From an uncultured Ignavibacteria bacterium (lineage in GTDB: Bacteria > Bacteroidota > Ignavibacteria > Ignavibacteriales > Melioribacteraceae), in the NCBI GenBank assembly GCA_937930275.1, contig CALGLM010000285.1, forward strand, positions 1-11,435: 11,435 bases of DNA. Reading direction: 5' to 3'. Each line of letters begins with the position of its first letter. The first letter of the stretch is position 1. Under the pieces are notes generated by a model, which saw only the letters and a list, made by a program, of their open reading frames with translations, was not told where the DNA came from and did no database searches. Shown here in pieces: positions 874 through 9,580 of the stretch. The translations under genes were made by a program, and so were the position numbers.

Positions 874-2550
874 TTAGTCTCTTGTATTCAATTTAAATAT
901 GTTGGCGGGTTTAACAAAAGTATTATTTTTGCCCGTATTATTTACTCTATGTAACCTCTCAACTTTATCAAGTGTATCACGTAAAACCCCTAACGAACGC
1001 TGACTAAGCAAATCTATTTTAATTAAACCTAACTCTTCTATTGAGTACATATCGGGTTGTGTAATTATTATTCCTAAGCCCTTATTGCCGGCGTATTCCA
1101 AAGCAACATAATTAGTAATAGGTTCTTTGGTTATTACAATTCCGCTTGGGTGAATGCTTAAGTGTCGTGGAAATCCGGCTATTTTTGATGCTATTTCAAT
1201 TATACTTTTCCAAGGCTCAGTAGAAAAATTCAAGTTTTTTGATTCGGGAAATTTCTGTGCTAATATGGGTAAATTTTCCGCACTTGTCCAGGGAATAAAT
1301 CTGCTGTGTTTCGAAATTTCACTTTGTGAAATTCCAAATGCTTTTGCTATTTCTCTAAAAGCGCTTCGAGCTCTAAAAGTAACCGTGGTAGATATCATTG
1401 CAACTTTATCGTATCCGTACTTATCAAAAATATATCTTACTAATCTGTCTCTTTCTTTCCATGAAAAATCTAAATCAACATCGGGGGGCGATAAACGTCC
1501 TCTATTTAAGAATCTTTCAAAATATAAATTATGATAAATCGGATTTATTTGTGTAAAACCTAAACAGTAAGCAACTAAACTATTTGCCGCAGAACCTCTG
1601 CCAATACTCACCATCCTTCGTGTTTTGGCTTCTCTAACAATATCCCAAACAACTAAGAAATAATCTAAAAATCTTAATTCGTCAATTACTTCTAATTCGT
1701 ATTGTAAACGCTTTACGGCTTTTTCCGTTATTGGTTTTATCCTTTCTGATAATCCCCTGAAACTTACTTTCCATAGGTATGAAAACGGAGTTTCATCCGA
1801 ATTTAATTTAAATTCCGGAAACTTGTATTTGTGGAATTCAAAATCGACACTGCATTGTTGGGCTATATCATCCGTATTCCACATTGCTTCGGGTACGGAT
1901 TTCCATATATTGGTCAATTCTTCAGGACTTTTTAAATAGTATTCAGGGTCTTCTATTTCGTCATCGTTCAAGTTTGCAATTGTTTTATTAAGTCTTACTG
2001 CATTTAATGCTTTATGTACTATATAATCTTCTTTTTTTTCAAAATATACGGGGTTAGAAGCCATTATTTTAATTTTATGCTCTTTAGCATAATTAAATAA
2101 TAAGCGTGTATTTTTTTTTGCTTTCTCGGTACTAATCAATTCTGCATAAAAATTTTCATTATTAATACCTCGTTCGTTTAATAACTGAAATAATTGAATT
2201 GAATTGATTAGTACAAATATGTTTGTCGAAATTTTAGATAAAATATCAATTATCGAAAATTCGTCTTTTAGCTTTTTTGCGGTAATTATTTTGCATATTT
2301 CGCTATAGCCCGCATTATTTTTTGCAATTAATATAACGCTGTGGTATTCATCTTTAATTTGCGAACCTAAAATAGGTTTTATTTTTTCTGCAGATGCAAT
2401 TTTTGCAAATTTAATTAAACCGTTCATTGCATTTTCATCAGTAAGAGCTACATATCCGGAACCGCTTTTTTTTGCAAATCCAATTAGTTTTTCAATTGTA
2501 ATTGCACCGTTTAATAACGAAAAATTAGAATGAGTATGAAGTGAAAACAT
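874..2550 (-). CDS. dnaE: Truncated DnaE-like C-family DNA polymerase (PHP-palm-thumb only)
   Basis: The protein resembles the N-terminal half of bacterial DNA polymerase III alpha / error-prone DnaE2; the symbol denotes the family, and a full replicative DnaE is presumably encoded elsewhere. Seen in its 558 residues: a PHP domain (about 1-240) starting LHTHSNFSLL; the palm motif GRGSAANSLVAYCLGF (317-332); YFERFLN and PPDVDLDF (355-362) with catalytic D357 and D359; a thumb region; IHPSGIVI (466-473); and IKIDLLSQRSLGVL (510-523) with the third catalytic aspartate D513. The frame stops at 558, whereas relatives run to about 1,000-1,160 residues, so fingers, helix-hairpin-helix, clamp-binding and OB regions are missing. 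The PHP metal site also looks damaged: the usual LTDH reads LTDE (E39), the usual GCE reads GSQ (Q64), and the usual NDVHY reads NPVYF. It follows dinB by two bases and is last in the LexA operon. It may be a decayed polymerase, a non-catalytic partner of DinB, or a specialised short form. Family certain, activity doubtful. Confidence 0.9.
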   Translation of the reverse strand: MFSLHTHSNFSLLNGAITIEKLIGFAKKSGSGYVALTDENAMNGLIKFAKIASAEKIKPILGSQIKDEYHSVILIAKNNAGYSEICKIITAKKLKDEFSIIDILSKISTNIFVLINSIQLFQLLNERGINNENFYAELISTEKAKKNTRLLFNYAKEHKIKIMASNPVYFEKKEDYIVHKALNAVRLNKTIANLNDDEIEDPEYYLKSPEELTNIWKSVPEAMWNTDDIAQQCSVDFEFHKYKFPEFKLNSDETPFSYLWKVSFRGLSERIKPITEKAVKRLQYELEVIDELRFLDYFLVVWDIVREAKTRRMVSIGRGSAANSLVAYCLGFTQINPIYHNLYFERFLNRGRLSPPDVDLDFSWKERDRLVRYIFDKYGYDKVAMISTTVTFRARSAFREIAKAFGISQSEISKHSRFIPWTSAENLPILAQKFPESKNLNFSTEPWKSIIEIASKIAGFPRHLSIHPSGIVITKEPITNYVALEYAGNKGLGIIITQPDMYSIEELGLIKIDLLSQRSLGVLRDTLDKVERLHRVNNTGKNNTFVKPANIFKLNTRD

Positions 2551-2552
2551 TT

Positions 2553-3698
2553 TTAAAACTTACCTACCGTTATTGAATCAAAACCAAACTTGTCTCTAAT
2601 TTTAGATACGGCTCTGTACATCCTTTTTCTCATTGTTTCGGCATCTTCAAAAATTGTATCTTGTTCGGCGTATTCCCTTAAGTTGCTTAAAGCTACTCCA
2701 AGCAAACGTACTCCTACCCTTCTTGTGTATTCAGTTTTAAATAAGCGTAAAATAGTTGAATAAATAATATCGTCTGAATCGGTTGCATATTTTAATGTTT
2801 TTGCTCTTGTTACGGTAACAAAATCAGTATATCGTAATTTTAAGGTTATTGTACAGGCAACCCAATCTTCATCACGTAATAATTGACAAACCTTACCGCT
2901 TAATTCAAAGAGTGTTTGTTGAAGTTTGTTTTTATCGGTAACATCTGTATCAAAAGTTGTTTCTTTTGATAAGCTTTTTCGGATATGAGATATACTTAAA
3001 ATATTATTACCGTGCCCGTTAGCCTTTTCCCAAATATCAATTCCCGATTTTCCAAAAGTTACCGAAAAATATTCTTTAGGAATAGATGTTATATCCTTAA
3101 TTTTATAAAAACCTTTTTCATTAAAGTGTTTAATTGTAACCTTACCTACCCCGGGTATGGTTTCGAGCGGCATATTTGCTAAAAACTCTTTCTCTAAACC
3201 CGGTATAACGTAAGTAATTCCTTTTGGTTTATAACAATCCGATGCAATTTTGGCAATAGTTTTATTTGTGCCGATACCAATTGAGCAAGGTAAACGTAAA
3301 AACTCCCATATCTCCTTCTGTAATTTATTGGCAAACTGCAGTAAATTGCCGTAAATTTTGGAAGTCCCGGTAAAATCCATATAAAATTCATCAATAGAAG
3401 CTTGCTCTATAATCGGAGCATATTTTTTTAAAATTTTTTCGACAGCTTCGGAATAACGTTCGTATTCTTTATAATGACCGTGCAAATAAATTCCGTGCGG
3501 ACAAAGTCTATATGCTTGACCTATGGGCATTGCCGAGTGTAGCCCAAATTCTCTTGCCTCGTACGAGCAGGCAGATACAACTCCCCTGCCGTTTGGGTCT
3601 GCACCCACAATAACGGGCTTCCCTTCTAAATCGGGGTTAATAATACGCTCAACCGAAACAAAAAAGGCGTCCAAGTCTAAATGAAAAATTATTCGCAT
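2553..3698 (-). CDS. dinB: Y-family translesion DNA polymerase IV (DinB)
   Basis: This protein of 381 residues is a DNA polymerase IV, an error-prone enzyme that copies past damaged bases. Catalytic residues are all present: D8 in FHLDLDAFF and D103-E104 in SIDEFYMDF. F13 sits at the steric-gate position that excludes ribonucleotides, with the same numbering as E. coli DinB. Other features are YEAREFGLHSAMP (fingers), SIGIGTNKTIAKIASD and KPKGITYVIP (palm), a helix-hairpin-helix IPGVGKVTIKHF (181-192) in the thumb, and a little-finger domain from about residue 240, opening KSLSKETTF. After RLLGVALSNL, the pentapeptide QDTIF (346-350) stands where many DinB proteins carry the clamp-binding QLSLF motif. 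Intact catalytic residues argue against ImuB, the inactive relative found in DnaE2 cassettes. The start ATG lies six bases after the DUF72 stop, and the DnaE-like gene follows after two bases, so translation is probably coupled. Expected to be LexA-repressed. Confidence is high. Confidence 0.96.
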   Translation of the reverse strand: MRIIFHLDLDAFFVSVERIINPDLEGKPVIVGADPNGRGVVSACSYEAREFGLHSAMPIGQAYRLCPHGIYLHGHYKEYERYSEAVEKILKKYAPIIEQASIDEFYMDFTGTSKIYGNLLQFANKLQKEIWEFLRLPCSIGIGTNKTIAKIASDCYKPKGITYVIPGLEKEFLANMPLETIPGVGKVTIKHFNEKGFYKIKDITSIPKEYFSVTFGKSGIDIWEKANGHGNNILSISHIRKSLSKETTFDTDVTDKNKLQQTLFELSGKVCQLLRDEDWVACTITLKLRYTDFVTVTRAKTLKYATDSDDIIYSTILRLFKTEYTRRVGVRLLGVALSNLREYAEQDTIFEDAETMRKRMYRAVSKIRDKFGFDSITVGKF

Positions 3699-3704
3699 TT
3701 GGCA

Positions 3705-4589
3705 TTAAGCTTTTATTTTTTCTAAACGAGGAAAAGTTTTTAATGTAGTATCCGGTATTTTTACCTTTATTCGGTTATTCAGTAAGTACATAAACTCAAA
3801 AGCATTTGCAACAGCATAGCCGGTCGGGTGGTTATTAAGTATAACAAAAACTTTTTTTACTTTATCATAAACTTCACGTAAACTATTTTCAATTTCGGTA
3901 ATTTCTCCTGGCAAATATAAATATTTATATCTTTCGTTCTGTTCGTTATATGTTTGCGGTTTACCGAAATTGTTTATCGATTCCTTCCAACCATCAACAT
4001 TTCTACCATGACAGCGTAAATAAAGTATGTTTCCGGTTACAAAAGGAATAAGGGGTAAAGAAGCACCAACTTTAGGTTGGTCAACGGCACAAAAACTAAC
4101 TTTATTTTCTATTAAAAACTGAACGGCATCTTTATTATTCCAGGAGTTATGTCTAACTTCCAAAATTTTATTATATGGTTGAAATATTTCAAACAATTTA
4201 CTTAAATAATTAATATTAGCATCGTTAAAGCCAAAAGAGTAAGGAAATTGCATTAATAAAGCCCCCAACCTTTCGGCTCTATTAAGTAAATCCAAATTAT
4301 ATTCAAAATACTTAGATTGTTGTAAACTAAATTCACGCTTGTGTGTAAAGTCCTGATTTAATTTTATGCTAAATAAAAAATCGGAGTTGTTTTTTACTTT
4401 TTCTATCCAGCCTTTTACTATTTCCGCTTTAATATAAGTATAAAACGAGGAGTTAACTTCTACAGTATTAAAATAATCAGAATAAAATTTAAGCCAATCG
4501 TATTCCTTCGTTGCGCTTGAATAATAAAAACTGTTAACCCAGTCTTTATACGACCAGCCTGCGGTTCCAATGTATGATTTTTGTTCCAT
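3705..4589 (-). CDS. DUF72 family protein (YecE-like TIM barrel)
   Basis: This 294-residue protein belongs to the DUF72/YecE family, predicted TIM-barrel proteins of unknown biochemical role. Family signatures seen are IGTAGWSYKDW (7-17), FNTVEVNSSFY (40-50), FLFSIKLNQDFTH (71-83), LGALLMQFPYSF (108-119), ILEVRHNSW (142-150), FCAVDQP (166-172), LYLRCHGRN (189-197) and FVILNNHPTGYAVANA (248-263). No signal peptide or membrane segment is evident, so it is expected in the cytoplasm. It sits six bases after the YjbQ stop and six bases before the dinB start, inside the LexA operon, which suggests a role in DNA damage or its metabolic consequences; that is inference from position only. Length is normal (about 240-300 in the family). 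No Shine-Dalgarno site is visible, and coupling to the upstream gene is likely. Family assignment is strong, function unknown. Confidence 0.9.
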   Translation of the reverse strand: MEQKSYIGTAGWSYKDWVNSFYYSSATKEYDWLKFYSDYFNTVEVNSSFYTYIKAEIVKGWIEKVKNNSDFLFSIKLNQDFTHKREFSLQQSKYFEYNLDLLNRAERLGALLMQFPYSFGFNDANINYLSKLFEIFQPYNKILEVRHNSWNNKDAVQFLIENKVSFCAVDQPKVGASLPLIPFVTGNILYLRCHGRNVDGWKESINNFGKPQTYNEQNERYKYLYLPGEITEIENSLREVYDKVKKVFVILNNHPTGYAVANAFEFMYLLNNRIKVKIPDTTLKTFPRLEKIKA

Positions 4590-4595
4590 AACAAA

Positions 4596-5012
4596 TTAAT
4601 AAAAAATAGTTGCAATTAGTTTTCTGTTGCCGCCGTAATTTCGGTGTTCACCTAAATAAATTCCTTGCCAAGTTCCTAAATTTAATCTGCCTTGAGTAAT
4701 AGGGATAGTTATTGAAGCACCTAATAAAGATGATTTAACATGGGCAGGCATGTCATCATTTCCTTCACAAGTATGGCTAAAATAACCCGAGCCGTCAGGA
4801 ACTGCTCTGTTAAAAAATGCTTCCATATCAACACGTACATCGGGGTCCGCATTTTCATTTAAGGATAACGATGCTGATGTATGCTGAATAAACAGATTTA
4901 ATATGCCGGCTGAAATATTTTTTATCTCCGGTATGTTAAATAATATCTCATCGGTAATTAAGGTAAAACCACGTTTTTTTTGCTTAATTGTGATAGCTTT
5001 TTGAATAACCAT
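4596..5012 (-). CDS. yjbQ: YjbQ/UPF0047 family protein
   Basis: A small, complete member of the UPF0047/YjbQ family (138 residues, normal length). The conserved family blocks are intact: FIQHTSASLSLNENADPDV (41-59), HTCEGNDDMPAHVKSSLLG (80-98), ITQGRLNLGTWQGIYLGEHR (105-124), and GGNRKLIATI near the C-terminus. H44, N54, H80, H91, E122 and R124 lie in these blocks. E. coli YjbQ has been reported to have weak thiamine phosphate synthase activity, but the physiological role of the family is unsettled. Cytoplasmic; no signal peptide. It is third in the LexA operon, 17 bases after the alkyltransferase stop and six bases before the DUF72 start. Why it is in a damage-inducible operon is unknown. 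The ATG start matches the usual family N-terminus. Confidence 0.92.
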   Translation of the reverse strand: MVIQKAITIKQKKRGFTLITDEILFNIPEIKNISAGILNLFIQHTSASLSLNENADPDVRVDMEAFFNRAVPDGSGYFSHTCEGNDDMPAHVKSSLLGASITIPITQGRLNLGTWQGIYLGEHRNYGGNRKLIATIFY

Positions 5013-5029: not shown

Positions 5030-5488
5030 TTATAATGAAATTTTTTCAATTTCTAAAAGTTTCTCTTTTCGCCAAGTTCCGCCTGCATAACCCGCAAGCT
5101 TTCCGTTATTTGCTATAACCCTATGACAAGGAATAACTATCGGAATTTTGTTTTTGCCGTTTGCCGAGCCTACCGCTCTAACAGCTTTTGGATTACCGAT
5201 ATTTTCGGCTATTTGTTTATACGAAACAGTTTTTCCGTAAGGTATTTTTTGCAATTCTTGCCATACTTGTATTTGAAAATCTGTTCCGTTTAACAATAAA
5301 GGTATATCAAAAGTAGTTCGTGTTCCGTTAAAATAATCAATTAATTGTTTTTTCGTTTGTTTTAATAATTCGTTTTCTTCGTCTTTCCCCTTATTTTCAA
5401 CAAAATTTATTTCTTCCAATTTTGTTTGAGTGCATATAATTTCTAACACTCCTATAGCACTTTCAAGGTACCCAATATACTTTTTCAT
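5030..5488 (-). CDS. ogt: O6-alkylguanine-DNA alkyltransferase (methylated-DNA--protein-cysteine methyltransferase)
   Basis: This suicide repair protein transfers the alkyl group from O6-alkylguanine (and O4-alkylthymine) in DNA to its own cysteine. In its 152 residues the acceptor is C121 in IPCHRVIANNGKLAGYAGG. The arginine finger R104 (KAVRAVGSANGKN) and the hinge asparagine N113 lie 17 and 8 residues before the cysteine, the same spacing as in human AGT (R128, N137, C145). The helix-turn-helix segment FQIQVWQELQKIPYGKTVSY is typical. The N-terminal ribonuclease-like domain is short, with no AraC/AdaA domain attached, so this is the stand-alone Ogt-type rather than the regulator Ada. It follows lexA by 14 bases and has the only clear Shine-Dalgarno site in the operon. 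Regulation by LexA, rather than by an Ada-type adaptive response, is inferred from the operon. Function is secure. Confidence 0.96.
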   Translation of the reverse strand: MKKYIGYLESAIGVLEIICTQTKLEEINFVENKGKDEENELLKQTKKQLIDYFNGTRTTFDIPLLLNGTDFQIQVWQELQKIPYGKTVSYKQIAENIGNPKAVRAVGSANGKNKIPIVIPCHRVIANNGKLAGYAGGTWRKEKLLEIEKISL

Positions 5489-5502: not shown

Positions 5503-6126
5503 TTATATTGCTTTTTTATCCATACTTCTATAAATACCTATAACTACTCCCACAATAATAAATTTGAGACCGGTTTTTTCTATTATAATAGGTTTATATT
5601 CAATATTTTCGGAATGAAGTTCTATCCTATCTTCATATTTAAAATAGCGTTTAACTACTGCTGAATCTTCTAAAACGGCAACTACAATTTGTCCGTTCAA
5701 AGGAATAATATTTGGATTTACGATAACTATATCGCTATCAAAAATATAAGCATCCTTTAAGCTATCCCCTTTAACCTTTAACAAAAACGAATCACCCGGT
5801 AAATTTACAATAGTGGGAAGTTCGATAGTATCAATAGAATCGGGATATATGGTTAATGGATTACCGGCAGCTACTTCACCTAAAATTGGGCGTGAAATAA
5901 ATAACTTATCTTCAATGGTAAGTTCAATTCCGCGTGAAAGTTTTTTATTACGTTTAATATAACCTTTATTTTCTAAGGCTTCAAGCTGTTGTTTTACGGT
6001 TGAACGATTTTTATAACCAAAATACTCTGCTATTTCGGCTAAAGTCGGCATGTTTCCGTTATTAGATTTTACTTTTATTATGTAATCTAATATTGCTTTT
6101 TGTTTTTCGGTTATGTTTTTGGACAT
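5503..6126 (-). CDS. lexA: LexA repressor
   Basis: LexA represses the SOS regulon and cleaves itself when bound to RecA filaments. I start it at the ATG at 6126-6124 (207 residues, MSKNITEKQKAIL), which matches usual LexA N-termini; an in-frame TTG two codons upstream is possible but less likely. The N-terminal winged helix (about 5-65) contains MPTLAEIAEYFGY and STVKQQLEALENKGYIKR. The C-terminal S24 peptidase domain has the cleavage site Ala87-Gly88 (EVAAGNP), nucleophile S122 in VKGDSLKDAYIFDSD, and base K159 in AVVKRYF. The Ser-Lys distance (37) and Gly-Ser distance (34) equal those of E. coli LexA. It heads a tightly packed run of damage genes and has a palindromic operator just upstream, so it most likely represses its own operon. 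No clear Shine-Dalgarno site is seen. Confidence is high. Confidence 0.96.
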   Translation of the reverse strand: MSKNITEKQKAILDYIIKVKSNNGNMPTLAEIAEYFGYKNRSTVKQQLEALENKGYIKRNKKLSRGIELTIEDKLFISRPILGEVAAGNPLTIYPDSIDTIELPTIVNLPGDSFLLKVKGDSLKDAYIFDSDIVIVNPNIIPLNGQIVVAVLEDSAVVKRYFKYEDRIELHSENIEYKPIIIEKTGLKFIIVGVVIGIYRSMDKKAI

Positions 6127-6135
6127 ATTCAAATA

Positions 6136-6151
6136 CCATACATTTGTATGG
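6136..6151. promoter_or_regulatory. lexA: Candidate LexA operator (SOS box)
   Basis: The bases CCATACATTTGTATGG form a perfect inverted repeat with 7-bp arms around a 2-bp centre. It begins directly after the predicted -7/-10 element and covers the expected transcription start, nine bases before the lexA ATG, so a bound dimer would block initiation. The sequence differs from the E. coli (CTGT-N8-ACAG) and Bacillus boxes, but its TACA/TGTA core with short spacing recalls the cyanobacterial type. I saw no second complete copy in the window. Assignment as the LexA site is inference from symmetry and position. Confidence 0.75.
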
Positions 6152-6182
6152 TAAATTTACATTTTTTTTTGTAATAAGTCAA
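6152..6182 (-). promoter_or_regulatory. Predicted promoter of the lexA operon
   Basis: On the minus strand, TTGACT (6182-6177) is separated by 17 bases from TAAATT (6159-6154), a good sigma70-type pair. The same bases also read TAAATTTA (6159-6152), one mismatch from the Bacteroidota TAnnTTTG -7 element. Transcription would start near 6147, inside the palindrome, giving a leader of about 20 bases. A run of nine A fills part of the spacer. Confidence 0.65.
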
Positions 6183-6349: not shown

Positions 6350-9300
6350 CTAAATAAAAATTCGTTTTAAAACATCAACTAATTTATCTCGCATAACCGG
6401 TTTTGAAATAAAATCGCTAAAACCGGCTACAATAAATTTTTCTCTATCTCCGGGTAACACATATGCAGTAACAGCAATAACCGGAACTGATTTGTACCCG
6501 GGCATTCTCTGAATTGAACGAAGTGCGTCTAAGCCGTTATATTCACCTTGTAGGTTCATATCCATTACAATAAAATCGTATTTGTTTTTTTCTAATAGAG
6601 GTATAGCATCTTCAAATGAAACAGAAAATTCAATTGATCTTAAATCTTTCATTTGTGATTTGAATAAAATTTGGGAATCTGTTTGATCTTCAAGGTACAA
6701 ACAACTATAATTACTCATATCAAATTTTTTTTCAATCGGTTTTTCGGGCATTTCGATAGATGATGGTTTAGGAGTAGTTACAACCGGTTCTTCAACTATT
6801 GCGGGTGGAATATAAACCGGCTGAACTTCAGGAATAAAATTAAATTCGGGTTCTGTCGGTTTTGAATAAATTTCTTGCAAAACTTGTCTATCTTCTTTTA
6901 TTATCGGTTTTTCTTCTATTTCGGGAACAAAAGTCTTTTCTTGTTTAGAAAGTGATTTTTCAAACGCCGAGTTAATATTTTCCAAAACTCTAAAATTATA
7001 TTTTAACGGAAATTTAATCCCTATCTCCATAATTTTTCCGGCTCTGGTAACTTCTTCAACCTGACCGCTTAAAAGATATAAAATTTTACGCAACAATCTA
7101 ACAGTGAATCGAGAAATTCCGTAATTACGTCTTACCGTTTCTTCGTTAGCCGTCAATATTTCCTTCATCTTTTTTAATAATTCCGGAGTAATTCCCGAAT
7201 TTACGTCTTTTAAAGAAATAATTCCTTCATCTTGATTTAGAGAATAAGCCGAAATATATATTTTTGATTCCTTAGAATTATTAATTGCAAAAGTAAGAAA
7301 CAGATTAAGTAACGTTACAAGTTTATATTTATCAGTCTGAATTGTCAAAGACGATGAAATTTTACCGTAAGCAAACGATTTGTTTTTAGATTCGGATAAT
7401 TCTTTTAGATTATTCTGTAAATCTTCAATTATCTCTATAAACACAACTTGTTCCGGAAATACTTCGATTTGTTTGGTTTCTAATGCAACATATTCGGAAG
7501 CATTATCCAAAATTCGCATTAATAGTTTTTGGTTCTCATTAATAATTGAAATGGCTTCTTCTTGTTCTTCAGTCGGGTCTATTATACTTTCTGAAAGTTC
7601 TTGAGCAAACCCTTTAATTACATTAATAGGAGTTAAAATTTCATGAAACAAATGTGATAAAAAGTCTAAATCAAGCGATCCTATATTCGAACTCGGTTTC
7701 TCAATAATTTCTTTTTCAATTCTAATTATCGGTTCTTGTTTAACACTAATTAATAGAATATAAATTTCGACTTGTCCGTTGTTGCCTAACACCGGAGTTA
7801 CATTTGTTTCCGTATTAATTCTATTTCCGGATTTGGTTTTCAAATCTATTTCCACAACAAATGAATTTTGTTGATTTTGATTTAATACCATTGAGTTAAA
7901 TTTACCCCTATTATCATCGGCAATTAAACTTATCATAGGACGTTTGTCTAAATCCCCTTTTTTATAACCAAGTTTTTCAATCACAGATTTATTAGTATAA
8001 CTGATAAATCCGTCCGAATCTAAAACAATAACCAAGTCATTTGTATTTTCAGTAATTGTCTTATAAAAAGAATCAGAAGAGTTAGAATTTTTATTTTCGG
8101 CTTTTTTTATAAAAGTGATATGAGCCTTTTTACCTCTATAGTCTGTATCTTTTTTATATATTTCTACGGTTATAGTTGCTCCGTCACTTCTTTTTTGCCT
8201 GACCGGACCGGTATATATATCATTTCTATTTATGCTTTCGGTTGTTTCCAACAAAGTTTGTATATCTTCCGGAGTATATAAATCGGTTAGATCCAACTTT
8301 AAAAAATCAGCTCGTTTGTATCCATATAAATTCAACGCGGAATCATTTACATCTAAAAATCTTAAATTTTCAATTTCGTAAATAAAAACCGGTTGCGGAA
8401 TAATGTTAATATTCATTTCGTTCATAACAACCTTGTCATTTAAGTTATTTTTCAAATCTTTTATTTTAATACTTATATTACCTGAAACCATGCTGCCGGA
8501 TATTATTTTGGTAAATAATACCTCATATTCGTTTATGACTTCACCGTTTTGTCTGTGAAGATAAATATATTTATGTCCTTTACGTTCTCTAAAATTGTTC
8601 CTGTATCTTTCAATTTCCGATACAAATTCGTCATCAAAAACTTCGGCAATATTTTTTTTATGTAGATTTTCACCGTTTGAAAAATCTAATAATAAATTTG
8701 TTTCTGTATTATATGAAATAATTTTATTTTGTTCGTCAACAATAAATACTTCCGAAAAATCTGAAATTGAAGTTTCCTCAGAATCCGTATTTTTTTCGAA
8801 TACTAAATCCTCGGCAATATTTACAATTCCTAATACCCTATTATTGCTAAATATCGGTATTTTAACAAGTCTAATTCTATCTCCTTTAGTAGTTTTTCTT
8901 TCGTTTACAATTTTAACATTTATATTTGCATTGAATATAAAATAATCTGCATCACGTCCAAATTCTGTACCTGTTGTTTTAGAAAGTATTGTTGAATCGG
9001 CTCCTTCTAATTCAACCTTGGGAGTCCCAATTCTTTGGGCATAAGGACTATTAACCAATACATATTTATGTTCACTGTTTTTAATCCAAACCTTATAGTC
9101 AATACTATCTATCTCATTTGCAAGTTTTGTTTTAGTAATAATTGAATAAGGAAACGAATTTACCAACGTTTGAGCTATTTCTGCTAATTTTGTAGGAATT
9201 GGTAATCTGGATACTTCAGAATCAGTTACTACAAGTCTGTTTTTTGAATATTTATAGTAATTAAATGTAAAGAAAAAATACTCTTTTTGGTAAAATGAAA

Positions 9301-9580
9301 ATTTAGAGCATAAAATTTCAAAGTTTTCATCTTCGGCAAACGAAAACATCCCTTTTTTGAATACAATTAATTCATATTTAAGAGATTCGTTAATTGTTGT
9401 TACAATTAAATCGGCATCTTTTTTACTAAATATTGATGTGATTTTTGCATTAGTCTTTAATCCGGGAATAAATCCAGAAGCTTCTTTATTAAATCCAAAT
9501 ATCAATAAATCATAACTAAAAATTATAGTCGGATTTTCATTATTATTTAATATATATTCAAAAAAACTGTCGTTTATCAT
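6350..9580 (-). CDS. Multi-PAS hybrid sensor histidine kinase-like protein with C-terminal receiver and degraded ATPase domain
   Basis: This 1076-residue signalling protein has no evident membrane segment or signal peptide, so it is probably cytoplasmic. Domains in order: a divergent PAS-like N-terminus (about 1-115); PAS-like regions at about 145-262 (YKVWIKNSEHKYVLVN) and 272-375; two clear PAS domains at about 385-492 (PQPVFIYEIENLRFLDVN, LYGYKRADF) and 503-613 (DLVIVLDSDGFISYTN, KLGYKKGDL); a HisKA helix with phosphoacceptor H646 in FHEILTP; an HATPase-like region (about 750-860); a Pro/Glu/Lys-rich linker (about 885-950); and a complete receiver with E964-D965, phosphoacceptor D1007, T1038 and K1060. 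The ATPase motifs are poor: the N-box Asn aligns to F764, the G1 box reads DVNSGI instead of DxGxGI, and the GLGL box reads NYGISRF. It may not autophosphorylate. It begins one base after the FN3 lipoprotein stop. No output DNA-binding domain is present, so the partner is unknown. Confidence 0.88.
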   Translation of the reverse strand: MINDSFFEYILNNNENPTIIFSYDLLIFGFNKEASGFIPGLKTNAKITSIFSKKDADLIVTTINESLKYELIVFKKGMFSFAEDENFEILCSKFSFYQKEYFFFTFNYYKYSKNRLVVTDSEVSRLPIPTKLAEIAQTLVNSFPYSIITKTKLANEIDSIDYKVWIKNSEHKYVLVNSPYAQRIGTPKVELEGADSTILSKTTGTEFGRDADYFIFNANINVKIVNERKTTKGDRIRLVKIPIFSNNRVLGIVNIAEDLVFEKNTDSEETSISDFSEVFIVDEQNKIISYNTETNLLLDFSNGENLHKKNIAEVFDDEFVSEIERYRNNFRERKGHKYIYLHRQNGEVINEYEVLFTKIISGSMVSGNISIKIKDLKNNLNDKVVMNEMNINIIPQPVFIYEIENLRFLDVNDSALNLYGYKRADFLKLDLTDLYTPEDIQTLLETTESINRNDIYTGPVRQKRSDGATITVEIYKKDTDYRGKKAHITFIKKAENKNSNSSDSFYKTITENTNDLVIVLDSDGFISYTNKSVIEKLGYKKGDLDKRPMISLIADDNRGKFNSMVLNQNQQNSFVVEIDLKTKSGNRINTETNVTPVLGNNGQVEIYILLISVKQEPIIRIEKEIIEKPSSNIGSLDLDFLSHLFHEILTPINVIKGFAQELSESIIDPTEEQEEAISIINENQKLLMRILDNASEYVALETKQIEVFPEQVVFIEIIEDLQNNLKELSESKNKSFAYGKISSSLTIQTDKYKLVTLLNLFLTFAINNSKESKIYISAYSLNQDEGIISLKDVNSGITPELLKKMKEILTANEETVRRNYGISRFTVRLLRKILYLLSGQVEEVTRAGKIMEIGIKFPLKYNFRVLENINSAFEKSLSKQEKTFVPEIEEKPIIKEDRQVLQEIYSKPTEPEFNFIPEVQPVYIPPAIVEEPVVTTPKPSSIEMPEKPIEKKFDMSNYSCLYLEDQTDSQILFKSQMKDLRSIEFSVSFEDAIPLLEKNKYDFIVMDMNLQGEYNGLDALRSIQRMPGYKSVPVIAVTAYVLPGDREKFIVAGFSDFISKPVMRDKLVDVLKRIFI

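Follow-up and report, generated by a model that had tools for sequence, protein, structure and literature searches.

In cyanobacteria the DNA polymerase known in split form is the replicative DnaE, and the B-family polymerase of Methanothermobacter likewise consists of two polypeptides, with no intein. Among accessory enzymes, a RecA-NT motif in Y-family polymerases and a pairing of PolY with DnaE2 in Bacteroidetes have been described (available portion of PMC6511836), and DnaE2B-PolY-RecA complexes have been proposed for the same group (available portion of PMC12926913, which also states that one partner is catalytically inactive in ImuA-ImuB-DnaE2 systems). The accessible text of PMC3919608 includes one Ignavibacteria genome with both DnaE1 and DnaE2 and mentions that fragmented sequences were sometimes reconstructed, so a split form may have been met there as a fragment.

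The stretch of DNA analyzed here (the window) comprises 11,435 nucleotides of a contig from an uncultured Ignavibacteria bacterium. One of its genes very probably encodes the N-terminal subunit (N-half) of a non-covalent, two-polypeptide polymerase of the DnaE2 type, whose C-terminal subunit (C-half) would come from a second gene and which likely acts in a mutasome with DinB and RecA. The features of the locus are summarized in Table 1.

Table 1. Features identified in the window, with coordinates and strand
Feature	Position	Strand	Basis or remark
N-terminal half of split DnaE2-like polymerase (putative), PHP + palm + thumb, 558 aa	874..2550	-	
Residues 519-558: last palm helix and variable low-confidence tail	877..996	-	pLDDT <50 from residue 540 on
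Third palm aspartate D513, with K511 two residues ahead	1012..1014	-	Invariant 28/28
Palm aspartates D357 and D359 (PDVDLDFS)	1474..1482	-	Aligned to Taq PDIDTDFS; invariant 28/28
dinB, Y-family polymerase, 381 aa; DxD and DE active-site residues by eye	2553..3698	-	Pfam IMS, IMS_C
DinB C-terminal RecA-NT-like motif AVSKIRDKFGFDSITVGKF	2556..2621	-	By eye; resembles first RecA helix and strand of relatives
DUF72 protein	3705..4589	-	Pfam
UPF0047 protein	4596..5012	-	Pfam
O6-alkylguanine-DNA methyltransferase (ogt)	5030..5488	-	Pfam
LexA-type repressor (LexA1), first gene of packed run	5503..6132	-	Pfam and NCBIfam
Perfect 20-bp palindrome TACCATACATTTGTATGGTA (P1), proposed LexA1 operator, directly before lexA	6134..6153	.	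P1 at lexA1 in 8/10 relatives' genomes
Promoter-like TTGACT-17-TAAATT directly before proposed operator	6154..6182	-	Consensus match only

The N-half is a single open reading frame with an ATG start. Pfam places a PHP domain (PF02811) at residues 4-98 and DNA_pol3_alpha (PF07733) at residues 258-515, with no domain beyond; neither fingers nor helix-hairpin-helix (HhH) domains were found by Pfam in this polypeptide. The GRGSAA motif occupies residues 317-322, and D357, D359 and D513 are aligned to the PDIDTDFS and KMDFL aspartates of Taq Pol III alpha, which we take to be catalytic. Together with D361 and K511, they are invariant in all 28 aligned N-halves (alignment A3, the window and 27 loci picked for diversity from the best 80 of 193), and the window protein has both the three palm aspartates and the PF07733 domain expected of a C-family DNA polymerase. 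The original prediction, made from the letters of the window, had noted that the aspartates and GRGSAA are kept in a protein that ends 45 residues past D513, and the open reading frame, Pfam and the Taq alignment confirm this. It had also remarked on the tight packing behind dinB, which is borne out by a dinB end only 2 bases upstream of the N-half and by gaps of 2-17 bases throughout the minus-strand run lexA-ogt-UPF0047-DUF72-dinB-N-half. The other half is indeed absent, as it stated, from this protein and from the contig, whereas relatives encode that half elsewhere; in the 276 bases downstream of the N-half, the list of open reading frames contains none of at least 60 aa on the minus strand.

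By eye, the C-termini of DinB in 36 relatives look like that of the window, and RecA of relatives carries ..IEK.HGKG.IMKLGD, or a near variant, close to its N-terminus. The window DinB has, by eye, the features of an active PolY partner with a RecA-NT motif. Directly upstream of lexA1 (window 6350-9580) lies a gene for a large PAS/HisKA/receiver hybrid kinase, and a related kinase is found upstream of lexA1 in several relatives (L022, L025, L067, L282, L286, L287 and L288), a conserved pairing.

A search of protein sets with the window N-half found 1719 proteins among 7997 scored candidates. It accepted lengths of 0.55-1.75 times the query only, so that a DnaE longer than 976 aa could not appear among these homologues, and our comparison with fused forms rests instead on genome searches and a tree. 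All 120 homologues among the matches listed are 528-606 aa long, contain PHP and PF07733, and are 61-100% identical. A scan of species genomes with the N-half yielded 193 relatives, and the best 80 of these loci were inspected. Their titles are mostly Ignavibacteria, Melioribacteraceae or Bacteroidetes, the others being Cloacimonadota (1), Chlorobiota (1) and plain "Bacterium" (2). At 74 of these 80 loci the N-half is a single open reading frame of 529-592 aa, and at 4 (L026, L029, L054 and L079) it is truncated by a contig end; at none was a full-length version seen, and such a gene in close relatives is what the original prediction had named as evidence against itself. At two further loci (L064 and L077) the N-half is broken into two open reading frames, possibly by decay or sequencing error. 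The conserved core stops at ..KIDLLSQRSLGVLRDT, with a short tail of variable sequence beyond it, an end point that alignments (including A1, 29 of the 120 listed homologues) show to be common to the family.

In close pairs of relatives, dN/dS is 0.025-0.144 for the N-half and 0.039-0.127 for the C-half described below, as obtained from a simple Nei-Gojobori count on 22 pairs in which dS is often saturated and from which infinite-dS values are excluded. Each half is under purifying selection in relatives, as had been anticipated for the N-half, for which the close pairs lie at about 0.03-0.14. That the window protein ends inside the DnaE profiles, on a short contig (11.4 kb), is what would be expected of a pseudogene or an assembly truncation of full-length dnaE, an explanation whose probability we consider negligible given the size common to all 120 listed homologues (which equally supports the earlier view that this is no simple frameshift), the purifying selection in relatives, and the occurrence of the C-half as a separate open reading frame in many arrangements.

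In 26 of the best 80 loci, the inspected stretch also contains a protein of mostly about 560 aa, the C-half, with fingers (PF17657) and HhH (PF14579) domains and a weak OB match under the Pfam cut-off. Where it neighbors the N-half, it lies divergently between DUF72 and dinB, in tandem in either order, or convergently. Its homologues (120 among the matches listed) are 485-628 aa long and all contain PF17657 and PF14579, and the fingers residues R164/R165 are invariant in all 20 aligned sequences (alignment A2, 20 of the 26 C-halves). At the sequence level the N-half matches DnaE up to residue 576 (Escherichia coli numbering) and the C-half from 592-595 (E. coli and Mtb), placing them on consecutive parts of one DnaE, with which predicted structure models agree. 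In databases the halves, where named, are called "PHP domain-containing protein," "DNA polymerase III subunit alpha" or "hypothetical protein"; named C-half relatives among the matches listed are "DNA polymerase III alpha subunit" or "hypothetical protein."

Co-occurrence of the halves was counted in 391 genomes of the class of CP053447 (G002, titled Ignavibacteriota), evenly drawn from a larger group at a completeness of at least 80. The N-half (called at E <= 1e-150) is present in 72 genomes, as a partial match in 10 of these, and a stand-alone C-half (called at 840 bits or more, in frames of 510-628 aa, with one stop within the match in G306 and G374) is present in 70. Both halves are found in 65 genomes, the N-half only in 7, the C-half only in 5 and neither in 314 (odds ratio 583; Fisher p 1.2e-59, uncorrected for kinship and therefore overstating the evidence, because the genomes are related). 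Lower-scoring pieces of a C-half are present in three N-only genomes (G065, G071 and G240). The 65 pairs divide into 35 on different contigs, 24 within 6 kb (divergent in 11, N-then-C in 6, C-then-N in 4 and convergent in 3) and 6 that are 40 kb to 3.3 Mb apart on one contig; given the first and last of these groups, expression of the halves need not be coupled. In a draw of 395 genomes from the phylum (matches listed at E <= 1e-90), a stand-alone C-half of at least 840 bits was found in 27 and in two pieces in G071; all 28 were already in the class set, and in genomes first met in this draw the matching frames, of 871-1175 aa, are fused forms or DnaE1. Distances in the N-half and C-half trees are correlated (r 0.52, reached by none of 2000 permutations; 54 genomes with both sequences), but this was set aside as proof of interaction because both halves follow the species tree and the signal is inseparable from shared descent.

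The neighborhood of the window recurs in L022, L025 and L028, where lexA, DUF72, dinB and the N-half follow in the same order, and with wider gaps in L015; in L001, whose contig begins there, dinB and the N-half are present. The C-half is on another contig in all five of these genomes. The closest relative met (G358) has an N-half 77% identical to that of the window over residues 248-531, where its contig ends inside the gene, a pyruvate:ferredoxin oxidoreductase neighbor as in the window, and a C-half of 560 aa. In a test of eight relatives' genomes, seven have a C-half. The exception, G003 (L050, CP070637), is a single-contig 2.8-Mb MAG with an N-half and no stand-alone C-half match, through loss or incomplete assembly.

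The original prediction had inferred from the lost fingers half a function other than processive synthesis, which is left unsupported by a separate C-half in 65 of the 72 N-half relatives; its suggestion to look for a separate C-terminal fragment gave a positive result in those 65, in the five genomes of similar neighborhood and in G358. In one such account the N-half needs no partner and serves a purpose other than polymerization, perhaps binding DNA or assisting DinB, and the C-half is a separate leftover. The N-half does adjoin dinB in the window, dinB is present at 36 of the best 80 loci, and 7 of 72 genomes, as well as G003, have an N-half without a full C-half. We nevertheless judge this unlikely, since strict conservation of the palm catalytic residues would be needless and since the C-half has intact fingers residues in all 20 aligned sequences, is under purifying selection, and accompanies the N-half in most genomes.

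The relationship of the split polymerase to other C-family enzymes was examined in a tree of 38 rows. Split halves from 20 genomes form one clade (support 97/99) beside a clade of fused genes (99/97) contributed by 8 same-class genomes and 5 other Bacteroidota, and five DnaE1 fall far outside both. The split polymerase groups with the DinB-linked fused DnaE of Bacteroidota, apart from DnaE1, in this tree built without named DnaE2 sequences (e.g., mycobacterial). A dinB gene directly precedes the fused gene in all five other Bacteroidota examined and is near it at only two of the eight same-class loci (L155 and L156). In the alignments, the split site is the palm-fingers linker of the fused relatives: those of the same class read ..LDILSTRGLGT..DTM..PP.. 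and then GxTxGCFY.ESPAM, the split N-halves stop a median of 26 aa past SQR, and the C-halves start a median of 62 aa ahead of GxTIGCFYIESPG.

Two DnaE halves encoded by two genes recall the split-intein DnaE of cyanobacteria, spliced into one chain. Such splicing appears extremely unlikely here: the N-half tails beyond the last conserved SQR are only 12-44 aa long, with a cysteine in 2 of 151; HN[CST] occurs in none of 90 C-half leads; and Pfam, at E up to 1, finds no intein domain in the window N-half or the G358 C-half. The variable N-half tail (877-936 in the window, and its counterparts in homologues) often ends in a short hydrophobic peptide (e.g., NIFKLN), which may be a docking motif; a loose pattern for it fits 58 of 151 sequences, too weakly for a binding motif to be claimed.

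The sequences of relatives show that each half exists there, is conserved and is subject to selection, that the two co-occur, and that their sister form is a fused gene. The two-polypeptide polymerase that we favor would work as follows. The N-half would supply the PHP, palm and thumb of a C-family polymerase of the error-prone, damage-response DnaE2 type, and the C-terminal subunit, from a second gene elsewhere in the genome, would supply the fingers with the invariant RR pair, HhH and OB. The halves would fold separately and then dock without a covalent link, restoring the palm-fingers active site between them, and with DinB, encoded 2 bases upstream with its RecA-NT-like end, they would form a probable DnaE2-PolY-RecA mutasome like that proposed for Bacteroidetes. 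We infer that the halves assemble, that the complex synthesizes DNA and is damage-induced, and that the organism of the window has a C-half. Counting against this reading are the N-half genomes that lack a full C-half (G003 included), the five genomes with a C-half only, and the restriction of dinB to 36 of the best 80 N-half loci. Alternatively, the associated halves could be a catalytically weak scaffold that aids DinB rather than a polymerase; an inactive partner has its precedent in ImuA-ImuB-DnaE2 (available portion of PMC12926913), and the window DinB keeps its own active-site residues (by eye), yet invariance of both palm and fingers residues makes this very unlikely.

Two palindromes bear on regulation of the split polymerase. 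Promoter-like consensus matches of the kind found ahead of P1 are no commoner in the window (30) than in shuffles (29.0). The 18-base core of P1, with up to 2 mismatches, is found at 9 of 10 relatives' lexA1 genes versus 4 of 696 other genes. At up to one mismatch, ten genomes have 0-5 sites each (16 in all, versus 4 for a reversed control pattern), of which 11 were placed: 8 at lexA1, 1 before an N-half (G354), 1 before a C-half (G147) and 1 at another gene (G002). The second palindrome, TAGTGnnCAnnTGnnCACTA (P2), emerged from a dyad search of 24 regions upstream of C-halves. Counted afterwards with up to 3 mismatches, it precedes the C-half in 44 of 50 genomes versus 5 of 696 other genes, a count that is partly circular because the 50 genomes overlap with the 24 discovery regions. 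Two of the five other-gene sites (L049 and L071) belong to the C-half itself and were counted from its divergent neighbor. More independent evidence comes from the position of P2 before a second LexA (LexA2) and from its genome-wide rarity: at up to one mismatch, eight genomes have 0-3 sites each (15 in all, versus 2 for the control), 6 at the C-half, 7 before LexA2 (in five genomes) and 2 elsewhere.

LexA2 is 38% identical to the window LexA and fits the LexA model better (227 versus 159 bits). Within the stretch tested, P2, with up to 3 mismatches, is found at 28 of 30 LexA2 loci, including genomes without the polymerase; the exceptions (L259 and L274) are shortened loci. At a limit of 178 bits, chosen from the score list (weaker relatives continue at 165 bits and less), LexA2 accompanies the C-half in 65 of its 70 genomes and occurs in 97 of the 391 overall, 27 of the 97 having neither half. 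Two genes come after that of LexA2: one encodes a conserved protein of 80-98 aa with a weak WYL match below the Pfam cut-off, the other a protein of 127-164 aa without convincing family match (L240:2196-2438 and 2444-2827; similar in L233, L238, L241 and L242).

From the placement of P1 and P2 sites, the N-half and the C-half appear to have different LexA repressors in L025 and L028, whose layout resembles that of the window, and less clearly so in L022, where both sites are imperfect. This suggests a tentative model, possible though on balance doubtful, of a two-key enzyme in which the N-half and dinB would be controlled by one LexA paralogue (P1) and the C-half by the other (P2), an AND gate on error-prone synthesis; with the halves under different repressors, active mutagenic polymerase would assemble only once both were inactivated. 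The layout is not universal, as L055 and L056 have lexA, DUF72, dinB and both halves in a single orientation. P2 is found at dinB itself in 10 of 34 loci, and neither palindrome was found at recA (six loci). At a further set of loci (L031, L034, L035, L038, L039, L046, L048, L051-L053, L057, L062, L063 and L066), the N-half follows an apparent run of acyl-CoA dehydrogenase, IMP dehydrogenase, glycosyltransferase and PurD (by eye), without dinB in the locus, and neither P1 nor P2 precedes the N-half there. Non-canonical SOS repressors in Bacteroidetes are described in the available portion of PMC8565304, in whose main text the string "Ignavibacter" is absent.

Several features bear on assignment to the DnaE2 type. 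All eight relatives' genomes tested contain a further DnaE-like frame of 1150-1169 aa, and five of these were placed in the tree, far outside the split and fused clades, making the split polymerase of relatives a second C-family enzyme beside full-length DnaE1. The PHP metal site departs from the reference motif HHDHEH[C/H]DH (available portion of PMC12926913), with H at position 39 in 0 of 28 sequences, E at 64 in 1 of 28 and P at 167 in 27 of 28, and such degenerate ligands suggest that there is no PHP proofreading. The NCBIfam model for error-prone DNA polymerase (PRK05672, cut-off 939 bits) is missed by the halves (356 and 250 bits) and also by two fused relatives tested (617 and 597 bits); for neither half does NCBIfam distinguish DnaE1 from DnaE2.

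An account of a split, intein-free C-family polymerase was not found in the accessible literature searched; the string "Ignavibacteri" is absent from the main text of PMC12926913, whose three uses of "split" concern other matters. Going by that literature, a C-family polymerase divided between palm and fingers, with its two genes maintained across a bacterial class, would have an architecture not described before, one hidden by current annotation names. It would offer a natural test of the non-covalent assembly of DnaE palm and fingers, and of subunit splitting as a control of mutagenesis.

Among known systems, the DnaE2B-PolY-RecA module (available portions of PMC12926913 and PMC6511836) shares with the putative polymerase an accessory C-family enzyme beside DnaE1, a degenerate PHP site and a Y-family partner with a RecA-NT motif, but its polymerase is one chain, whereas here there are two proteins from two genes. 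The ImuA-ImuB-DnaE2 mutasome also combines C-family and Y-family proteins in a LexA-linked setting; the DinB described here differs in having active-site residues (by eye), and its DnaE partner in being split. The cyanobacterial split DnaE is similarly a C-family polymerase from two separated genes, but it is intein-joined (available portion of PMC3919608), whereas the present enzyme is an accessory copy without an intein signature. In its intein-free division into two polypeptides the putative enzyme resembles the split B-family polymerase of Methanothermobacter, which, however, is archaeal and belongs to an unrelated polymerase family.
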